Source: a virus
Reading direction: 5' to 3' (one strand)
DNA: 27,350 bases
IMG/VR virus record: IMGVR_UViG_3300032215_000213
Location: 1 to 27,350 of that record
Position 1 is the stretch's first letter; every line of letters starts with the position of its first letter. This document shows positions 195 through 19,752 of this stretch, in pieces. A program made the position numbers and the translations under genes. Below the pieces are notes generated by a model. That model was not told the DNA's origin and ran no database searches. It saw only the letters and a program-made list of their open reading frames with translations.

Positions 195-479
195 TTATTC
201 TGTGCCAGTAGCTGGATGATTTGCACCCAGTGGTGTAACACTAAATGCACCGGCTGTACCTGCTACATTGATAAAAGCAATGTAATTACCTTGACCTACA
301 ATGAAACTACGTTCAACTGTGTTAGCTGGAATAATTTCGCTTGATGTAAGATTAGCCACAACGCTTGAATTACCAACTGATACTGCTATTGCTGATGTGG
401 TTGTAGCAATACGAACTTTATCTGTTGTACTTGCTGATGTTAATTGACTTGATCCGTTAGCTGTATAAATTGTTGCCAT
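195..479 (-). CDS. small Ser/Thr-rich virion-type protein
   Basis: This encodes a 94-residue protein with no Cys, rich in Ser, Thr, Ala and Val, with alternating hydrophobic residues that suggest a beta-sandwich. It has no signal peptide or membrane segment. A GATAAATA late box (498-505) and an AGGAAG ribosome site lie directly before the ATG, so it is very likely a late gene. It sits between the long fibre gene (506-3733) and another small protein of the same flavour, which fits a decoration or tail-tip accessory protein. I do not recognise a named family, so the virion role is inference from context and composition. Confidence 0.75.
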   Translation of the reverse strand: MATIYTANGSSQLTSASTTDKVRIATTTSAIAVSVGNSSVVANLTSSEIIPANTVERSFIVGQGNYIAFINVAGTAGAFSVTPLGANHPATGTE

Positions 480-10047: not shown

Positions 10048-11295
10048 TTATCTACTACCGAAATTTTGACGGCTAAAGCCCATTCTATCTACGTATTTGT
10101 AGCCGTTAGCAACAAAGCCTTCTTGTCCTTTAGTACCATCATCCAATGCACCCTGTACAGGACTAGCTTCTGCGGCTCTATTCAGTTGATTTAATATCTC
10201 TGTCTTCAACTGATATACTGCAATCCATATGTGCATCAACGCATCAACACCTGCTTTGTTTGCAGGAATATGTCCAGGATATTCTTTTCCTGTTTTTTTA
10301 TCTGTGTAACCTGTTAGTAGTTTTTGTTTCATTGGACCTGTTAATGGTCTAGACTCAATGAAGTCATAAAAACCTTGTGTTAGGTTATTCAAGTTACCAT
10401 CACGGATTTTCTTGTTAAAGTAAACACCAATCAAGTTGTTTGCAAATGTTCCAGGATTAATTCCCAAGTAACTTGTATCTAATAGTTTATCCAGTGCAGG
10501 ACCATACTTGGCTAATTCTGATTTAAGATGTGCTATTTCAACTTTAGGAACTTGAATCTTAGGGGTTTGTGGCATCTTGCTAGGTAATATAGCAACATCA
10601 GAGTTATTTTTTAATCCACCCAACTCACCGTTCAATGATACTGCTAAATCAGTAGCATGTACCTTTTCGCCGGCTGCTGTCATTTGTGTTGCTTTTTCAG
10701 CGGCATCAGCTTGAATATATTGATGTACTGCGATACCTGCAGTTTTTCCTGCTAACTCACGTCCTATTTCACTATTAGCATCTACTGTATATGTGATACC
10801 ATTTGGATTGGCTTTGAAAATAAATTGACCGTTATTATCTTTTAATGGTTGACTGAATAGCAAGTCGCCCCAATAATATCCCTTTGTGCCTTTGCTTGAC
10901 TTTTCTAAACCTGGCCATATTGCAGGAATAATAGCTGCCAACCCACTACGCTCAACACCACGTGCTTTATCATATTCAATAAATTGTTCGGGACTGTAGA
11001 TTGCACGACCTGAACCATCAGGCTTATTAAACATATGTTTGTCACTAATACTAAACTTGCCATTGGTACCGTGACCAAATATCAATGCAGGATATCCGTC
11101 CCACTTGATAGTAGCGGTCTGTGGCTTTTTAATCGTAGCTTCTACAGATTTCAATGCGTCTTGTACTCCTGCGGTACCTTGCAAGTAAACGCTGTCTTCT
11201 AGGTGAGGGGCATGTCCACCGGTAAAGGCTTCATTGATAACTGATAGGCTATCAATCTTAGCTTTAAGCATTGACAGTGATTCTGATAGATTCAT
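10048..11295 (-). CDS. DUF6267-like protein with nucleotidyltransferase KxDG motif
   Basis: This encodes 415 residues from the ATG at 11295, one base after the upstream stop (TAA-T-ATG). A longer reading would lie inside that gene. HAPHLED at residues 28-34 and TIKWDGYPALIFG around Lys64-Trp-Asp-Gly67 resemble DUF6267 phage proteins. The KxDG matches motif I of the covalent nucleotidyltransferases (DNA/RNA ligases, capping enzymes), where the Lys takes AMP or GMP. KFSISDKHMFNK (80-91), YYWGDLLF (140-147) and FIFKANPNGITY (158-169) are placed like the later ligase motifs. The rest, from about 270, is helical. It is embedded in late genes, so it may act on nucleic acid in the particle or late in infection. 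Ligase chemistry is inference. Confidence 0.7.
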   Translation of the reverse strand: MNLSESLSMLKAKIDSLSVINEAFTGGHAPHLEDSVYLQGTAGVQDALKSVEATIKKPQTATIKWDGYPALIFGHGTNGKFSISDKHMFNKPDGSGRAIYSPEQFIEYDKARGVERSGLAAIIPAIWPGLEKSSKGTKGYYWGDLLFSQPLKDNNGQFIFKANPNGITYTVDANSEIGRELAGKTAGIAVHQYIQADAAEKATQMTAAGEKVHATDLAVSLNGELGGLKNNSDVAILPSKMPQTPKIQVPKVEIAHLKSELAKYGPALDKLLDTSYLGINPGTFANNLIGVYFNKKIRDGNLNNLTQGFYDFIESRPLTGPMKQKLLTGYTDKKTGKEYPGHIPANKAGVDALMHIWIAVYQLKTEILNQLNRAAEASPVQGALDDGTKGQEGFVANGYKYVDRMGFSRQNFGSR

Positions 11296-11296
11296 A

Positions 11297-12970
11297 TTAC
11301 GCTGTCGCTTTTTTAGTTCTAGTTTTTTTAGGTTTTGCATTTTGAGCAAAATCAATTTTACTATCTAAATCTTTTGCTTGATTGGGATTTGTAGGACTTG
11401 CTGTATGACGTACCCCAGTACCTGTTGGAGTTGATGTTCCACCTGTACTAGATTTAGCTTGACCCATAGTATCTAACTGTCTTGCCATGTTACCAAATGC
11501 ACTTGGTTGTTCTTTTTCTGGTTCTTGTTGAGTAGGTGCTGAACTAATTCCCAAACTCTTTTCAATGTATTTTAGTATACGTTGTTTACCTTTTTTATCC
11601 AACTTGCTGATTAATGGCATAGCTTGTTTATATGCAGTCTGTTGCTTTTCAGGCGCTTTGTTAGCATCTGTTGCAGGTGCGCTAGTTGCAGTAGTCGCTT
11701 GTGGTTTTTCTGCGCCAGTTGCTTGAGTTGTGGGTTCTGCTGTAGTGGCTCCATTTCCAGTGGACGCAGTTTGTCCGGCTACAGCAGAAGTATTAGCTGA
11801 TTGTGTTGACTGTTCTGGTTCAGCAGTCGCTGATTGTTTGTTTAGTCCTTGATTAACACCGGCTTTGATTGCATCTAATGCACTCTGTGGTTTTGCAGTA
11901 CTATCTGCTGGTTCTGCTCCGCTACCTTGACTATAGCTTGTTGCAAATGCTAATTCAGCCATTTTACCTAATGGTGCTTTAATACTTGGATAACTCTTTT
12001 GTACTTCGTCAGCCAATGCTTTCATCTGTGATAATGCTTGTGGATCATTTACCTTACCACCCATGTACTGCTTAAACATGTTTTGTAAATATTGACTGAT
12101 AGTTTGTTTTGCTGGCTGAGCTGGTTGTTCACCTGCTTCAATAATAGATTCAAACAATGCATTTAATTTATAGAACTTACTTTCTCTATTGATTTTTACT
12201 ACCTTAGGTGATCCATCAGGATTAGCACCTTGAATGCGTTCACCACTTCCACCTACATAATTCTTGAAACCGCTCTGTGTAGTGCCTGCAGTTTTACCTG
12301 CTTGACGCTGTCCTTGCAATTTTGCCTTCATCGCGGCTTGTTGCTGTGGTGTCATTTTTTGATTAGGTTGACTAGCAGGTTGTGTGACTTTAGGAGTCAT
12401 AGATGCCTGAGCAGTCTGTGCCGCGGCATTTTGTTTTTGTTGTCTTTGATTAGCTATTTGTGTTTGTGCTTGATTAGCTGGTAATTTACTAAATGGTACA
12501 GCTTGTTTATCAATATTTTGTTGTGCGGCTTTTTGTAATCTAATGCGTTTTTGCTCTGGTGTTTCTGGTTGACTTTGTGCATTTGCATTAGGTTGCTGTG
12601 CGTTAGGTTGTTGTGCGTTAGGCTTTGTTGCCTGTGTTGCATTAGGACTAGGTGTGTTCTGATTAGCCTGCGGACTAGTATTAGCAGGAGTAGTCGGTTG
12701 TGCCGGGGGTTGCTGTTGTGTTTGTGCAGTTTGCCCACTAGCCTTAGGGTCTACTAAACCACTTTTGATTGCGCTATTTAAGTTTGTATTTGCTCTACCG
12801 ATAAAGTCTGCTATAAACTTTTGTTTAGCCATTTTATCTTTAATAGATAATTGACCCTCTGCGTTACCCATGATTCTATTGCCAACTTGTTTAACAGCGG
12901 CGGAACCATAGTCACCCAATACATGACTTAAGTTGACTTCATCAACTTGTTTGAATTCGTTTAGTTTCAC
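11297..12970 (-). CDS. low-complexity Gln/Ala/Pro/Thr-rich protein of the late block
   Basis: This 557-residue protein has a GTG start (residue 1) with a TGAGGA ribosome site about seven bases upstream. The N-terminal 65 residues (KLNEFKQVDEV..., DKMAKQKFIADFIGRANTNLNSA) and a segment near 275-345 (ISQYLQNMFKQYM...AELAFATSYSQGSG) look folded. A shorter helical piece lies near 447-475. The regions between are Gln/Pro/Asn/Ala and Thr/Ala/Glu linkers and probably disordered. The C-terminus is basic (KPKKTRTKKATA). It overlaps the upstream 87-residue gene by 29 bases and is coupled to the KxDG protein downstream. The architecture suggests a tethering or virion-internal protein; no family is recognised. 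Confidence 0.7.
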   Translation of the reverse strand: MKLNEFKQVDEVNLSHVLGDYGSAAVKQVGNRIMGNAEGQLSIKDKMAKQKFIADFIGRANTNLNSAIKSGLVDPKASGQTAQTQQQPPAQPTTPANTSPQANQNTPSPNATQATKPNAQQPNAQQPNANAQSQPETPEQKRIRLQKAAQQNIDKQAVPFSKLPANQAQTQIANQRQQKQNAAAQTAQASMTPKVTQPASQPNQKMTPQQQAAMKAKLQGQRQAGKTAGTTQSGFKNYVGGSGERIQGANPDGSPKVVKINRESKFYKLNALFESIIEAGEQPAQPAKQTISQYLQNMFKQYMGGKVNDPQALSQMKALADEVQKSYPSIKAPLGKMAELAFATSYSQGSGAEPADSTAKPQSALDAIKAGVNQGLNKQSATAEPEQSTQSANTSAVAGQTASTGNGATTAEPTTQATGAEKPQATTATSAPATDANKAPEKQQTAYKQAMPLISKLDKKGKQRILKYIEKSLGISSAPTQQEPEKEQPSAFGNMARQLDTMGQAKSSTGGTSTPTGTGVRHTASPTNPNQAKDLDSKIDFAQNAKPKKTRTKKATA

Positions 12971-13250: not shown

Positions 13251-14705
13251 CTATTTCTTTAATGAACTGAGTAATGACTTTAATTTTGAACCCTGAACAT
13301 CTGCAACAATGTGTTTAGTGACTGGTTCTAGTATTTCACCTGTTGCTTGATTGATGATAGGCTGTGTAGAAACTAATGTTGCTTGAGGTTTAATCATGTT
13401 CATTAACTCATTTGGACTAGGTTGGGCGTTTGGACGATAACTATTTTCATCTTCTCCCGGATCAGTAATACGCATTGTTTCAATATTATATTCCAAATCA
13501 ATCTTTTGACCAACACCTGTACTACTACGTGACTTCATACATTGAATCTGATATTTACCACGTTCACGCATACTACGACTTGTAAAGATACCAAACACAT
13601 TATCCGCAGTATTAATCTTACTGATACCACCTGCAATATGACTATGGTCAAATTCAATTTCTTCTACTGCACTACGATTCAACTGACTGGCAGTTACCAT
13701 GAGAATTCCAAGTTCTTTTGACAAATTACGCAATTCTTCACTAACGTACTTGTCTTTGATAAACTGGTCGTTAGGATTAACTTTAACAGAGACTGGCATA
13801 ACTAAATCCAAATAATCTACCATAACAAAGTCAATTTTAATACCTGTTTGAATCTGCACTTCTTTTAGATAGCTACGAATATCATTTACAGTACTCTGTG
13901 CTGGTAATCCCTTGACACGATATGAACCTGATTTTTTACCTGCCATTTTAACTTTTAATTCAGTTACTTCAATATCCTTGCGAATATCACGTGTACTCAT
14001 GCTAGTTAACATAGCATCTGTTCTTAGACTAGTTAATTCTTCGCTTAATTCTAGACTGATATAGACACCACTTAGACCCTTTTGCAACCAGTTTAGTGCA
14101 ATGTTCATCATAACCAAACTTTTACCTGAACCACTACCACCTGCAAAGATATTCAATTCACCCCTGCTGAAACCACCATATAGTAGCTTATCCATCTGTT
14201 GCCAGCCTGTACTAACTTGTCCACCTGCATTGAAGTATTTGTTAATACGTTCTTTGGGATTTGCAAAATAATCCGTACCCATGTCTTTTTGCAGACTGAT
14301 TTGTACAGCATCTTTAATCATTTTCTCAATAGGACCATAATCACCACGTTTATCCAACATGTCAGCCGCTTTAAGAATTGCACGTTCTAATTCTTGTCGT
14401 TTAGTAAACTGTTCAAAGTTATCCAAGAACCATTCAAAATGTCCTTCATTGAGATTTTCAATAGGCTGAATATCAATACCAGTTACTGCCTTAATCTGTG
14501 TAGGGTCTGGTAATACTTTGTATTTGTCTGTGTGTTCTTTGAACATTTCTGCTACTGGACGCAATGACCTATCAAAGTTTTCGCTATTCATGATGTTCAT
14601 AACCCGAGTATATAACTCAGCATTTGTCAACATCATAGATAAGAAAAACTGTTGCGTTGCAGTATTATATTCTATCTGCTCTTTAGAATCCGTTTTGTTT
14701 GCCAA
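13251..14705 (-). CDS. 41: replicative DNA helicase, gp41-like (DnaB family)
   Basis: This encodes 484 residues. The C-terminal RecA-like domain has a Walker A GGSGSGKS (189-196), the ISLELSEE strand (216-223), Walker B FVMVDYLD (293-300), a SQLNRSAVEE segment and a KSRSSTGVG arginine-finger region. The N-terminal about 150 residues are helical, as in DnaB/gp41. It unwinds the fork on the lagging strand in partnership with the primase gene directly upstream, which it overlaps by 23 bases. The start is a TTG with AAAGGAAG four bases before it. The first in-frame ATG (residue 24) would remove a conserved-looking helix, so I keep the TTG. No late box is seen before it. Identification is firm. 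Confidence 0.95.
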   Translation of the reverse strand: MANKTDSKEQIEYNTATQQFFLSMMLTNAELYTRVMNIMNSENFDRSLRPVAEMFKEHTDKYKVLPDPTQIKAVTGIDIQPIENLNEGHFEWFLDNFEQFTKRQELERAILKAADMLDKRGDYGPIEKMIKDAVQISLQKDMGTDYFANPKERINKYFNAGGQVSTGWQQMDKLLYGGFSRGELNIFAGGSGSGKSLVMMNIALNWLQKGLSGVYISLELSEELTSLRTDAMLTSMSTRDIRKDIEVTELKVKMAGKKSGSYRVKGLPAQSTVNDIRSYLKEVQIQTGIKIDFVMVDYLDLVMPVSVKVNPNDQFIKDKYVSEELRNLSKELGILMVTASQLNRSAVEEIEFDHSHIAGGISKINTADNVFGIFTSRSMRERGKYQIQCMKSRSSTGVGQKIDLEYNIETMRITDPGEDENSYRPNAQPSPNELMNMIKPQATLVSTQPIINQATGEILEPVTKHIVADVQGSKLKSLLSSLKK

Positions 14706-15660
14706 TTTTCTTCCTTTGCATTTCTATCTTGATTTTACTACTTGTTGCACTGTGTAGTATACTAAGTAGGGTACTTAGCTTTCCATACTTTACTACAGCA
14801 TCATTTACATCTTTTACATCACTTTCCCAGTTGGGAATACTAACTTGATATCCCAATTCCAATGCTCTATCACAACTTTCAAGTCCTGTTTTATCCCTAT
14901 CGGGTACAAAGATAATTCGTTTGTTTAGTTGACTTAATAATAGTACTTGGTCATCATTAATTGTATTGTGTGTTAATGCACACGCATTCAAACTCAGTGC
15001 ATCAAAAATACCTTCTACCAATAAGCATACTTCCCATTCAGGTTTTTGAAAATCATAACCAAAAACATAACCAGGTTGTTGTTCATTGATATACTTAGGT
15101 ATCTTGTTGTCTAGGAATCTGCTTGTATGACCTACAATTTTGTTCTTGTAAGTATAGGGGATAATGATCCGATTACCCATTCTTCCCGATTCATTGGGTG
15201 TAACCATGAAAGGATAATCATTACTATCTATTCCCCTTGCAGTCAGATAATCTATGTAGACTTTGTGATTTGGGTTATTTATATCTAGTAATTCACCATC
15301 AGGTAATGTATGGTCATTGAATTTAATTTTTACACGTTTTGCTTTAGGCTGTAGTAAGTCTAGTAAGTCTTTGTGCTGTAGACTTTCCAAGCTCCAGCGT
15401 TGAACTTGGTCGCTATCAATACCACACCATACTAACAAATTGCGTGTCTTTGGACTAATCTGTCTACCTAATACGAAATTGCATTTGTATCCACAATTGA
15501 AACAATGCATAGACCAATTGTTTCCATCAAACTTAACCCCACCACGCATTCTACGGTCAGCTTTGTGTCCAAAATGACTACAACACACGGCATTAAAACT
15601 AGTCCAACCTGAACTAGTTTGTTTCTTTTTGCCCGGAAGAATCGATAGGATATCAAACAT
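14683..15660 (-). CDS. 61: DNA primase, gp61-like
   Basis: This encodes 325 residues from the ATG at 15660. An N-terminal zinc-binding motif (Cys26-x2-His29 and Cys53-x2-Cys56) is followed by a linker and a Toprim domain with the Glu motif VEGIFDA (215-221) and the Asp motif PDRDKTG (253-259) that bind catalytic metal. It makes RNA primers for lagging-strand synthesis and partners with the helicase whose gene overlaps its end. The order gp61 then gp41 in one transcript fits a primosome operon. A TATACT box with TTGATT 17 bases further on sits six bases before the ATG, suggesting a leaderless transcript, and no ribosome site is seen. A TTG one codon upstream is possible but unneeded. Confidence 0.93.
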   Translation of the reverse strand: MFDILSILPGKKKQTSSGWTSFNAVCCSHFGHKADRRMRGGVKFDGNNWSMHCFNCGYKCNFVLGRQISPKTRNLLVWCGIDSDQVQRWSLESLQHKDLLDLLQPKAKRVKIKFNDHTLPDGELLDINNPNHKVYIDYLTARGIDSNDYPFMVTPNESGRMGNRIIIPYTYKNKIVGHTSRFLDNKIPKYINEQQPGYVFGYDFQKPEWEVCLLVEGIFDALSLNACALTHNTINDDQVLLLSQLNKRIIFVPDRDKTGLESCDRALELGYQVSIPNWESDVKDVNDAVVKYGKLSTLLSILHSATSSKIKIEMQRKKIGKQNGF

Positions 15661-15666
15661 CAATAC

Positions 15667-16567: not shown

Positions 16568-16954
16568 ATGAATCTACAACAACAAGAATTTTTCAAAAGA
16601 CTAACAGATAACCATCCCTTTATCACAGTTTGTTCGTATGCCGGTCAAGATTATGTAGGTATAGTGCAGAATCGTGATGAGATGGTTACTACCATTTATG
16701 ACTATGGTTCTATACTAGAATCGACTGCTAAAGAAAAATTTTTGGAACTGGGTGATGTGTGGTGGTGGGAAAGCAACAGACTTATACCCATTAACTTGTT
16801 CTTAAAGAGTGAGTGGGCACCCTTTAAAGAATATCTAAGAACATTCAACAATAAAAGTCTAGTAATTATTCATGGACCTATCACTAGTCTAAATGAACTT
16901 AGTAAACGCAGGTCGAAACGTAAAAGTATTACGTTGGTCCGAAAGTTGTCGTAA
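16568..16954 (+). CDS. conserved phage protein, the only plus-strand gene
   Basis: This 128-residue protein has an aromatic/acidic body (HPFITVCSYAGQDYVGIVQN, FLELGDVWWWESNRLIPI) and a strongly basic tail (SKRRSKRKSITLVRK). The composition argues for a real gene: it is the only long frame here and has its own late-type box. The 3' end overlaps the convergent 16929-17510 gene by 26 bases. The basic tail might bind nucleic acid or an acidic partner. Proteins of this kind are, from memory, conserved in marine T4-like phages, unassigned. Its inverted direction among some 35 minus-strand genes is unusual. Confidence 0.78.
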   Translation: MNLQQQEFFKRLTDNHPFITVCSYAGQDYVGIVQNRDEMVTTIYDYGSILESTAKEKFLELGDVWWWESNRLIPINLFLKSEWAPFKEYLRTFNNKSLVIIHGPITSLNELSKRRSKRKSITLVRKLS

Positions 16955-17510
16955 GCAGGTTCATATGCACAACGACTAAGTGTGCATAGGCTATAGCATG
17001 TGCTTTTTTGAACACATAGCCATCATCATTCTTATCCCATACAGTCTTGCTAATTTCTTTCCAAGTCTGACTAATCAAGTGTTTCTTTCCCGGTCTAATG
17101 ATAGCTAAGAACATAGCTAGTCTAGGGATACTATCAATAGGTTCAGGCATCTTTTGCATGTTATAAAACTGACCATTCAAGTGAATCAATTTTTCTACAA
17201 ATTCGCTGTCTTTTAGTTTATCCCAGACAGGGTCAGCCATTAATTCAACCAGATGTTTCTCGTCTTTGACTTGTTCGTATACGTGTACATTCAACAGGTC
17301 TAGTTTAAAATAACCACGCTTATCAGCTTCAGTATAATCAATACTTGCCATGTCATGAATAGGATCATAGGGAATAGGAGTAATATAGATACCACTTGCA
17401 TGTTTACGTATAGGATTTACATTACGCATACTTGCAGAAGTATGCTTAATCAAATCAAGCAATTGTTCTCTGTTTCCAAAGTCAATATCAATATCACTAT
17501 TGATTTTCAT
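16929..17510 (-). CDS. mini DNA polymerase III alpha-like palm protein
   Basis: This encodes 193 residues, against over 1000 for bacterial DnaE. It opens with SDIDIDFGNR (residues 5-14), like the PDxDxDF motif holding two catalytic Asp of C-family polymerases (here Asp8 and Asp10). KHASGIYITP (36-45) parallels DnaE HAGGVVIAP. YFKLDLLN (67-74) parallels VKFDFLG, with the third catalytic Asp at Asp71. LAMFLAIIRPGK (131-142) and FKKAHAIAYA (167-176) parallel DnaE's ALYRPGP and FNKSHAAAYA. PHP, fingers extension, beta-clamp and tau-binding parts are missing. It overlaps the upstream DEDDh exonuclease by ATGA, so the two are coupled, like an alpha/epsilon pair. Resemblance is strong by motif order; whether it polymerises DNA is unknown. 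Its 3' end overlaps a convergent gene. Confidence 0.72.
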   Translation of the reverse strand: MKINSDIDIDFGNREQLLDLIKHTSASMRNVNPIRKHASGIYITPIPYDPIHDMASIDYTEADKRGYFKLDLLNVHVYEQVKDEKHLVELMADPVWDKLKDSEFVEKLIHLNGQFYNMQKMPEPIDSIPRLAMFLAIIRPGKKHLISQTWKEISKTVWDKNDDGYVFKKAHAIAYAHLVVVHMNLLTTTFGPT

Positions 17511-18055
17511 CTGCTCATCAATCCAGCTTTAATTAAATTCATATAACCTTTTTGTACAACAATAGCCTGACGTTCTGCATCTTCTACAGCCTTATGCGTT
17601 GTAGTATGTCCACCATCTTTAAGACTGACTCCTGCAATTTCATATAATGTACGTGTATCACGTATTGTATAATAGGGCCATGGTATACGCATATCTAAGT
17701 TACGCCATGCACTTTCCATTGCCACAACGTCAAAACTTGCGCCGTTACTCCACACTGCACGACGGTTCCAACAAAACTTATATAGTTTTTCCATGCAGTC
17801 ATGAAATGATTCACGACCTTGGTCTCCCATGGCTTCTTCAATTGCCTGAGGACTTTGCTCACTCCACCAACGCAATGTGTCTTCGTTAATACTACGATTG
17901 TATTTTTCTGTTTGTTCATCAATGGTAGGACGCAATTCTAATCGTTCAACTACACCTTGCCCCTTAGGGTCAAAACGTACGGCACCGATAGTTAAGATAA
18001 CACAGTCAGGTGTTGTATCTAAACTTTCAATGTCTATCATAATATCGTTTGCCAT
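17507..18055 (-). CDS. dexA: DEDDh 3'-5' exonuclease, DexA/DnaQ-like
   Basis: This 182-residue protein has the DEDDh exonuclease set. Exo I is IDIESLDTT (Asp8, Glu10), exo II lies in SNGASFD (Asp109), and exo III is THKAVEDAERQA (His154, Asp159). The TLRWWSEQSPQA helix (60-71) is shared with T4 DexA (227 residues) and Rv2179c-type nucleases. It removes nucleotides from 3' ends of DNA or RNA. AAAGGA lies eight bases before the ATG, and the stop overlaps the ATG of the PolIII-alpha-like gene. The symbol is by family resemblance to T4 dexA. The coupling suggests it works with that protein, possibly as a proofreading-like partner; this is inference. Confidence 0.9.
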   Translation of the reverse strand: MANDIMIDIESLDTTPDCVILTIGAVRFDPKGQGVVERLELRPTIDEQTEKYNRSINEDTLRWWSEQSPQAIEEAMGDQGRESFHDCMEKLYKFCWNRRAVWSNGASFDVVAMESAWRNLDMRIPWPYYTIRDTRTLYEIAGVSLKDGGHTTTHKAVEDAERQAIVVQKGYMNLIKAGLMSR

Positions 18056-18064
18056 AATTATCCT

Positions 18065-18337
18065 TTAGTTTTTCCACATCTCATACATGGTTATATATTT
18101 GTCTTCCCAGAACTCTATTGTAACACAACCTGATATAAATTGAAAGTCCCAACCAACACCACGTTCACCAAAATTTCTACGACACCATTTTATAAGTTGT
18201 GTTGGGTCTTCTTTGCGTTTCTCACAGTCACGCACGTATACTGTTTTAAATCCAGACTTATATGTACGTTCTTTATCGGTTGTGTGATACCCAAGATTAC
18301 TAATAGGTATTAATTTAGGTAGAGATTGTGTTGCCAT
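18065..18337 (-). CDS. small conserved protein, member 4 of a four-paralogue set
   Basis: This 90-residue protein has a C-terminal pattern LIKWCRRNFGE-x-VGWDFQF-x-VTIEFWEDKYITMYEMWKN. It matches the pattern of the genes at 18993, 19217 and 19495 in its W-C/L-x-x-N/T-F/Y/M-G turn, Trp-led strand, aromatic FxF strand, E/D-K/R-D/Y and final aromatic-Trp segment. The N-terminal half (SLPKLIPISNLGYHTTDKER) is different. A TACAAT box lies five bases before the ATG, with TTGAAT 18 bases further. The function is unknown; the fold is likely a small alpha/beta domain. Confidence 0.7.
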   Translation of the reverse strand: MATQSLPKLIPISNLGYHTTDKERTYKSGFKTVYVRDCEKRKEDPTQLIKWCRRNFGERGVGWDFQFISGCVTIEFWEDKYITMYEMWKN

Positions 18338-18340
18338 AAG

Positions 18341-18991
18341 TTATTGTAGCATTAATTCGTTAACAAATTCAAGTAATAAGGTATAATGCTTTTCTTCATG
18401 CCATTTGTTTTCTATGTACTGCCATGGTTTTTCATACCAATACTTTTGACTTTCTGGATGACAGCCTATAATGCCAATACGATTTTGCATGATTGCCATT
18501 GGATCACCGTTACTGTAACGTGCAATAGTTTTGAATTTGGTTTCATCACCAATCAATGCACAACCATCATAAAAGTACATATCCTGTTGTATGCCTTTCC
18601 AATCAATACTTGCAGTAGTACCATAGCTACGTTTGATATCTGCTGTTGGGCGCTTGATGTACTGTACTGCATCCACATCTTCTAATATATCAAAGTAATA
18701 GCTACCCGCCCAATATGCACCCATGCATATGCCTAGATATCTTCCACCATTGGCAACATAGTCGGCAATACAATTTTCTGCCCTGCGTCTGAAAAACTTA
18801 TCATAACTATCTGAATCACCTATACCGCCGGGAAATGCAACTATATCAACATCAGCTAATAAGTTGCTATTTACCTCTGTTGTACCAAATGTTTTAATGT
18901 CATAATCATTACCCAATGCTAAGGTCATACCATTTACGCAGTCTTGCGAACATTCGGGGTGATTTAAAAATAATGCTATTTTAGGTTTCAT
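18341..18991 (-). CDS. class I glutamine-amidotransferase-like protein (BPL_N type)
   Basis: This 216-residue protein has the flavodoxin-like amidotransferase-1/DJ-1 layout. An N-terminal strand KIALFLN is followed by VDIVAFPGGIGDS (49-60), the nucleophile elbow GGRYLGICMGAYWAG (82-96) with Cys89, and a GCHPES motif (176-181) with His178 and Glu180. Together these make a complete Cys-His-Glu triad. GGxYLGICxGAYxAG is most like the N-terminal domain of biotin-protein ligase proteins (BPL_N). No synthase or biotin-ligase partner domain is present, so the ammonia acceptor, if any, is unknown. It lies among the small four-paralogue proteins in an early/middle operon, which suggests host take-over or nucleotide metabolism. 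Confidence 0.8.
   Translation of the reverse strand: MKPKIALFLNHPECSQDCVNGMTLALGNDYDIKTFGTTEVNSNLLADVDIVAFPGGIGDSDSYDKFFRRRAENCIADYVANGGRYLGICMGAYWAGSYYFDILEDVDAVQYIKRPTADIKRSYGTTASIDWKGIQQDMYFYDGCALIGDETKFKTIARYSNGDPMAIMQNRIGIIGCHPESQKYWYEKPWQYIENKWHEEKHYTLLLEFVNELMLQ
18343..18372 (-). promoter_or_regulatory. promoter TTGAAT-N18-TACAAT, five bases from ATG
   Basis: TTGAAT (18367-18372) and TACAAT (18343-18348) are 18 bases apart on the minus strand, with TGC before the -10. AACTT and then the ATG at 18337 follow. It lies in the end of the upstream amidotransferase-like gene. Confidence 0.4.
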
Positions 18992-18992
18992 T

Positions 18993-19220
18993 TTATTGCC
19001 ATGTTAGTGTGAACATGATATAGTCACGTTCGTATCTGAATTTAAACTGTATTGTATCATCGATAATACGCCAACGTGCATGTCTTTCGGGTTTACCCAT
19101 ATTGCTATACAACCAACTAATCATTTCAGGAAACTTTCCCGGTGAAAAGTCAATGACTACTTTGTGCCAATATTTGTCATGTTCCCAATCTTTTGATGGA
19201 TCATAGTTTTCAAATATCAT
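18993..19220 (-). CDS. small conserved protein, member 3 of a four-paralogue set
   Basis: This 75-residue protein has MISWLYSNMGKPERHARWRI and then IQFKFRYERDYIMFTLTWQ at its end. These parallel ...IEWCEKTYGE...WRF...FEFKHERDRTFFLLRW of the 19495 gene. The ATG overlaps the stop of the upstream 19217 gene by four bases. The Trp/Phe-rich strands and the ERD motif look like a compact domain. Function unknown. Confidence 0.7.
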   Translation of the reverse strand: MIFENYDPSKDWEHDKYWHKVVIDFSPGKFPEMISWLYSNMGKPERHARWRIIDDTIQFKFRYERDYIMFTLTWQ

Positions 19221-19504
19221 TGGAACTTTAATAGAAAAACCAAATATAATTTTTCATCCATTATTTTATATCCATCGGTGATATTTCCGTTGACTATGTT
19301 CATCTTGACACCATAGTATTTTTCTAAATAATCTTCAAACTCATACGCATCAAACTGTTCACTACCTGTCTTTTCTAGGTATTCTTTACGTACAAGTTTA
19401 AGTGCATTCCAATAATCCCATCGATTTTTACGACGGTCTATTTCTGTATCATCATCGTCATAATCTTGAAAGGGTTTGATGGTAGCCACAAACTTCACGC
19501 CCAT
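19217..19504 (-). CDS. small conserved protein, member 2 of a four-paralogue set (divergent)
   Basis: This 95-residue protein has a KPFQDYDDDDTEIDRRKNRWD acidic/basic start, a helix, then FEDYLEKYYGVKMNIVNG and a closing IMDEKLYLVFLLKFQ. The YG turn and the closing E-x-L-Y-L-x-F-L-L-K-F strand follow the pattern of the other three members more loosely. The ATG overlaps the upstream gene by ten bases and its end overlaps the next ATG. Function unknown. Confidence 0.68.
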   Translation of the reverse strand: MGVKFVATIKPFQDYDDDDTEIDRRKNRWDYWNALKLVRKEYLEKTGSEQFDAYEFEDYLEKYYGVKMNIVNGNITDGYKIMDEKLYLVFLLKFQ

Positions 19505-19752
19505 CTCAACAAGAAAAATGTTCTGTCTCGTTCATGCTTGAACTCAAAAACACCCTCACCCATAAAACGCCAGATGTAGTTATCCATAGATATTTCACCA
19601 TATGTTTTTTCACACCACTCTATGCAAGGTGTCCAGCCCTGATAACGATGTCCGTTTATGGGGTTGTAGTGAACCTCGGGAGCTTGAACACTGGCCACAT
19701 ACCAAGAATCAATAGCCACTTGATTTGAGTAGGTCTTTGATGTCTGTAGCAT
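19495..19752 (-). CDS. small conserved protein, member 1 of a four-paralogue set
   Basis: This 85-residue protein carries CIEWCEKTYGE, IWRFMGEGVFEFKHERD and the closing FFLLRWA. From the ATG at 19752 it overlaps the upstream zinc-finger gene by 44 bases. A GTG at 19719 would cut the overlap and remove eleven N-terminal residues, and neither start has a strong ribosome site. It belongs with the genes at 19217, 18993 and 18065. Function unknown. Confidence 0.68.
   Translation of the reverse strand: MLQTSKTYSNQVAIDSWYVASVQAPEVHYNPINGHRYQGWTPCIEWCEKTYGEISMDNYIWRFMGEGVFEFKHERDRTFFLLRWA

Follow-up and report, generated by a model that had tools for sequence, protein, structure and literature searches.

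A 27,350-base virus fragment (the whole stretch of DNA analysed here, referred to as the window) raises the question of whether a protein of 193 amino acids can be a DNA polymerase of the C-family and whether it would act alone, together with the exonuclease encoded directly upstream or with a partner encoded elsewhere in the genome. Both open reading frames concerned (193 and 182 codons) were found on the minus strand at the positions claimed for them in the original prediction, and the claimed overlap of the two frames by ATGA was also found (Table 1). As far as can be read from the sequence, this overlap makes translational coupling of the two genes likely. Our preferred answer, to which we assign a probability of about 0.66, is that the 193-residue protein is the C-terminal half (C-unit) of a two-piece minimal C-family polymerase of T4-related jumbo phages, and that it assembles with a separately encoded N-terminal half (N-unit) into an active, dNTP-using enzyme.

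Table 1. Positions of the polymerase unit, its putative catalytic codons and the neighbouring genes in the window
Feature	Position	Strand	Evidence
Predicted C-terminal unit of split minimal Pol III alpha, 193 aa, PHROG 11778	16929..17510	-	PHROG E 9e-56, fold model, invariant catalytic residues
DexA / Rv2179c-like DEDDh 3'-5' exonuclease, 182 aa, clade-specific neighbour	17507..18055	-	PF16473, PHROG 255, PDB 8kel
ATGA start/stop overlap of exonuclease and C-unit genes	17507..17510	-	sequence
Codons D6-D8-D10 (DIDID; equivalent to E. coli DnaE D401, D403, D405)	17481..17495	-	motif mapping; invariant 113/113
Codon D71 (equivalent to DnaE D555, third metal ligand)	17298..17300	-	motif mapping; invariant 113/113
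Codon H171 (equivalent to DnaE steric gate H760)	16998..17000	-	motif mapping, PMC8485763; invariant 113/113
Convergent PHROG 11637 gene, conserved 3' neighbour of the C-unit	16568..16954	+	synteny
DNA primase (TOPRIM), conserved neighbour	14683..15663	-	domain match, synteny
DnaB-like (T4 gp41-type) replicative helicase, conserved neighbour	13251..14705	-	synteny

The 193-residue protein is a member of PHROG 11778, a family of phage proteins annotated as 'DNA polymerase', and over its full length it shares 39-45% identity with the C-units of the phages CBB, Atu_ph07, Paride, Phosso, SCTP-2 and Vibrio 2.275.O. Full-length matches to C-units of this type were obtained in 63 phage records, mostly jumbo phages and including Rak2-like and PA5oct-like phages, Atu_ph07, Phosso and SCTP-2. 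Viral metagenomes contained at least about 540-590 more copies. Cellular genomes yielded 12 matches, all within metagenome-assembled bins, which are probably mis-binned phage contigs. Between close relatives, dN/dS ratios of 0.04-0.09 were calculated for the C-unit and these values indicate strong purifying selection.

When the sequence of the window protein alone was used for direct searches of Pfam and PDB, nothing relevant was returned, and structure prediction from this single sequence reached a pLDDT of only 36. An alignment of 113 diverse C-unit sequences, which also served for the counts of invariant residues, was used as input for AlphaFold2 and gave a model with a pLDDT of 94.4 and a pTM of 0.85. 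When this model was compared with the PDB using Foldseek, the top seven matches were all bacterial Pol III alpha proteins (T. aquaticus, M. tuberculosis; probability 0.89-1.0) and the eighth was an unrelated P450 (probability 0.11). Among the viral structures of BFVD, the top 21 matches were Pol III alpha-type polymerases wherever they were named. The Pfam family DNA_pol3_finger matched 48 of the 113 C-unit members, every other family matching two at most, and a PDB profile search with the C-unit returned DnaE alone, weakly but in colinear order. Alignment of the C-unit profile with the single E. coli DnaE sequence by hhalign remained partial because DnaE segments of about 100 residues are absent from the C-unit; here, the fold search decided the relationship. 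Taken together, sequence and model indicate that the protein is a true relative of the C-family polymerases, an identity that we regard as nearly certain. Thus, the homology to the C-family palm and fingers that had been proposed for this protein holds, since the modelled fold matches DnaE only and the motifs are colinear; the structure prediction suggested as a check (pLDDT 94) led to DnaE-type proteins and not to an unrelated fold.

All sequence motifs named in the original prediction are present in the order given there: DIDIDF (6-11), RKHASG (35-40), FKLDLL (68-73), RPGK (139-142) and FKKAHAIAYA (167-176). They are colinear with PDFDVDF (400-406), KHAGG, KFDFLG (553-558), LFRPG (637-641) and GFNKSHSAAYA (755-765) of E. 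coli DnaE. In the 113-sequence set, D6, D8, D10, H37, G40, K69, D71, R139, P140, K142, H171, Y175 and N184 are invariant. Because these residues are invariant, dN/dS is low and the fold matches DnaE only, the motif conservation exceeds what chance would give. The assignment of the metal ligands had to be revised in part. D8, D10 and D71 had been named, and it is correct that the catalytic aspartates are retained and that D71 is one of them, but the ligands D401, D403 and D555 of E. coli DnaE align with D6, D8 and D71. In the AlphaFold2 model, D8 is located on the strand 7-11, D6 just before it and D71 on the strand 70-74, which in this predicted structure is the arrangement expected from DnaE. 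D10 aligns with D405, a residue that is absolute in the DnaE groups and replaced by Asn in PolC (PMC3919608), and the C-unit is therefore DnaE-like. Similarly, H171 aligns with H760 of DnaE, the steric gate by which ribonucleotides are excluded (PMC8485763). Compared with the DnaE type of the C-family, the C-unit thus has the three metal-binding aspartates, the fourth aspartate (D405) and the palm/fingers core fold. The GRGS motif and the thumb, PHP, beta-binding and C-terminal domains were looked for in the 193-residue chain and none of them was found. The chain skips the DnaE thumb, which we take to span residues of about 433-510, as well as residues of about 643-748.

The missing GRGS motif is carried by a second phage protein. 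According to Iyer et al. (2021; PMC7824862), jumbo phages of group 2.2 encode, in addition to a B-family polymerase, a minimal Pol III alpha that is specific to phages. They predict that it consists of two proteins whose genes lie far apart, of which the N-terminal one would bind NTP and the C-terminal one Mg and the template. From the text of this paper and the phage group, we infer that their C-terminal unit is the PHROG 11778 family. In all six isolate genomes examined, PF07733 matched a small N-unit of about 170-180 residues, which is encoded tens of kb from the C-unit and beside the clamp-loader gene. The N-units of these isolates contain G-x-GRGS and end at the equivalent of E. coli DnaE residue 393, and the C-unit resumes at about residue 396. 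GxGRGS was invariant in 80/80 N-units, and every one of 86 phage N-units ended 35-41 residues after the start of this motif. Fusion to the remainder of DnaE was found in none of the 86, and one-gene versions of the split polymerase were rejected on this basis. According to the sequence alignment, the palm is divided in such a way that the GS motif for triphosphate binding falls on one side of the cut and the metal-binding DxD motif on the other, and therefore a complete Pol-beta-type site is present in neither half.

The N-unit, the C-unit and a B-family polymerase occur together in each of the six isolate genomes, and the match lists of the N-unit and the C-unit have at least 43 named phage records in common. 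Most of the tested contigs larger than 200 kb contain both halves. Two of them (G011, G038) carry the C-unit without the N-unit. In a third (G024, 359 kb, locus L150), the N-unit and a B-family polymerase are encoded, but no C-unit was detected. All three may be fragments; for G024, the contig may be incomplete, or one half may have been lost or have diverged extremely. The 27-kb fragment itself contains no N-unit, but the contig with the nearest relative of its C-unit (76% identity) carries one, and this relationship suggests an N-unit in the window's own phage. A T4-like setting with a B-type replicase had also been proposed. This is true for complete relatives, and 11/14 large contigs of relatives encode a B-family polymerase, but none was found among the scanned open reading frames of the 27-kb fragment. 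Two Alishewanella phages of 141 kb (OQ508956.1, OQ508957.1), which are well below jumbo size, have both halves about 11 kb apart.

Inspection of the gene neighbourhood indicated that the most constant neighbour of the C-unit is the PHROG 11637 gene, which lies downstream in convergent orientation in 195/196 loci and whose 3' end often overlaps that of the C-unit gene. The primase is also located downstream of the C-unit, in 148/158 loci, and is followed by the DnaB helicase. The N-unit gene precedes the clamp loader by 0.8-2.9 kb in 63 of the 74 loci with enough sequence, and the same arrangement was seen in isolates. Thus, both halves are encoded in replication gene clusters. The exonuclease upstream of the C-unit matched PF16473 over residues 3-168 (E 6e-33) as well as PHROG 255 and PDB 8kel, and its DEDDh residues can be read from the sequence as D8, E10, D109, H154 and D159. 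It had been described as DexA/DnaQ-like; DexA-type (PF16473 / T4 DexA) is right and DnaQ is not. This gene precedes the C-unit in 68 of the 73 loci of the window's clade, in 42 of them within 20 bases, and it stands beside the C-unit in none of the 119 more distant loci, where a DexA-type exonuclease is encoded elsewhere in the genome, gives a weak match or is absent. A conserved alpha/epsilon-like pairing was rejected on the basis of these 119 loci, and the exonuclease is at most a clade-specific partner of the C-unit.

Several other features of the window were recorded. On the minus strand, positions 18065-19752 contain four small open reading frames (75-95 residues) that share a loose C-terminal pattern at 14-27% identity and look like diverged paralogues. 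Among them lies a gene for a class I glutamine-amidotransferase-like protein (BPL_N, Pfam E 5e-11; 18341-18991, minus strand), which is present in the closest relatives only. A DUF6267 protein (10048-11355, minus strand) with a ligase-like KWDG motif (KWDGYPALIFG) is possibly a nucleotidyltransferase. The window also encodes a phage-borne Fe-S carrier protein of the IscA/ErpA type (PF01521; 6256-6582, minus strand) and, inside an open reading frame of 94 residues at the contig end, a predicted tRNA-Lys (TTT; 220-306, minus strand).

In the two-piece polymerase that we favour, the N-unit would bring the GxGRGS triphosphate-binding motif, and the C-unit would contribute the three metal-binding aspartates, the palm lysine and the fingers core with the steric-gate histidine. 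The halves would associate without covalent joining to form an active polymerase that uses dNTPs. Because the three aspartates and the steric-gate histidine are invariant, it is likely that the C-unit is complemented in trans to give an active DNA polymerase, and about two chances in three may be given to an activity of the assembled pair. Since the thumb is absent, the grip on DNA, and with it a real polymerase activity of this pair, is uncertain. Without the thumb, the PHP domain and the rest of DnaE, the enzyme would be expected to synthesize short stretches of DNA, either by extending primers before hand-off to the B-family replicase or by filling gaps. This specific job, which is suggested by the gene neighbourhood and by analogy, is proposed tentatively. 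In the window's clade, the probably co-expressed DexA-type exonuclease may trim or proofread the 3' ends made by the polymerase. A full two-polymerase replisome, in which a B-family enzyme works beside a C-family enzyme whose active site derives from two genes (in the primase-helicase and the clamp-loader clusters), the latter extending primers before hand-off and a DexA-type proofreader being recruited in the window's clade, appears rather doubtful.

A stand-alone polymerase, another nucleotidyltransferase and a decoy are all less likely than a polymerase made of two halves. Originally, the protein had been seen as a self-sufficient miniature polymerase that, with its own exonuclease, mimics the alpha/epsilon core of Pol III, and the retained metal ligands and steric-gate residue as well as the adjoining exonuclease with its ATGA overlap are in keeping with this idea. 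However, the chain lacks the GS motif needed for a complete active site of the Pol-beta type, this motif being located on a separate, co-occurring phage protein encoded at another locus, and the exonuclease is of the DexA type and is a neighbour in one clade only (68/73 versus 0/119 loci), which leaves this explanation highly improbable. Pol-beta-type folds serve many nucleotidyltransferases. Together with the tiny, thumb-less palm of the C-unit, this is compatible with a nucleotidyl transfer other than DNA polymerization, in which the active enzyme adds a nucleotide, for example, onto an end, an RNA or a protein, probably with the help of the N-unit. We consider such an activity unlikely, since the fingers core FKKxHxxxYA and the steric-gate histidine are invariant, as expected for templated dNTP selection (PMC8485763), and since both halves are encoded among replication genes.

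The small size of the protein, too small for a replicase alone, and the absence of every alpha domain beyond the palm/fingers core might point to a non-catalytic replisome part or to a decoy that mimics the palm of the host Pol III alpha and captures, for instance, host tau, beta or epsilon. However, the parts that are absent are exactly those that a decoy would require for beta or tau, the metal-binding aspartates are invariant across a family present on at least 500 viral contigs, and purifying selection is strong, so that this role is very unlikely. The lack of a single-sequence Pfam match and of a significant direct PDB sequence match would be expected if the motifs resembled DnaE by chance on an unrelated fold. 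This idea has largely been refuted by the structure search with the predicted model; the confident fold matches DnaE only, the motifs are colinear with it and the N-unit covers exactly the preceding DnaE segment, and the chance explanation retains next to no probability.

The two-half polymerase differs from known systems in several respects. In cyanobacteria, DnaE is encoded in two pieces at distant loci that are rejoined by a split intein. The phage enzyme resembles this arrangement in that Pol III alpha comes in two pieces from distant loci, but it is cut elsewhere and its halves end cleanly, with no intein-like extension. With bacterial DnaE (E. coli), it shares the palm/fingers core and colinear equivalents of D401/D403/D405/D555, H511, K553, R639 and H760, but it is split at about 393-396 and lacks the PHP domain, the thumb, residues of about 643-748 and the HhH/beta-binding, OB and C-terminal domains. 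The gene upstream of the C-unit in the window encodes the same type of DEDDh 3'-5' exonuclease as T4 DexA (PF16473), whose gene is not known to lie next to a Pol III-like gene in T4. The closest likeness in kind is the split Pol III alpha predicted in group 2.2 jumbo phages (PMC7824862), which has a C-terminal metal- and template-binding half, an N-terminal half at a distant locus and a B-family polymerase in the same group. The cultured phages with this split polymerase have other genes upstream of the C-unit, whereas the window member comes from a clade, so far uncultivated, in which a DexA-like gene stands directly upstream.

The family and its split nature were thus already published in 2021 (PMC7824862), and we found no experimental study of the split polymerase in the literature searched. 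New are the exact split point, the corrected catalytic assignment, the conservation of the steric gate and the affinity to DnaE rather than PolC, as well as the clamp-loader linkage of the N-unit, the occurrence of both halves in 141-kb phages and the DexA gene as a neighbour in one clade. With the split point and the invariant residues at hand, cultured phages that contain both halves, such as 121Q and Paride, are open to direct tests. If our reading is true, two proteins would share one active site without an intein, one supplying the metal ligands and the other the triphosphate motif. This would be an uncommon way of building an active site, and the enzyme might be the smallest one of the C-family. 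A further question is why a second, strongly conserved polymerase is maintained in T4-like jumbo phages that possess a B-family replicase. Iyer et al. propose that the split minimal form resembles the ancestral Pol III alpha (PMC7824862), and the split polymerase thus bears on the origin of Pol III alpha.
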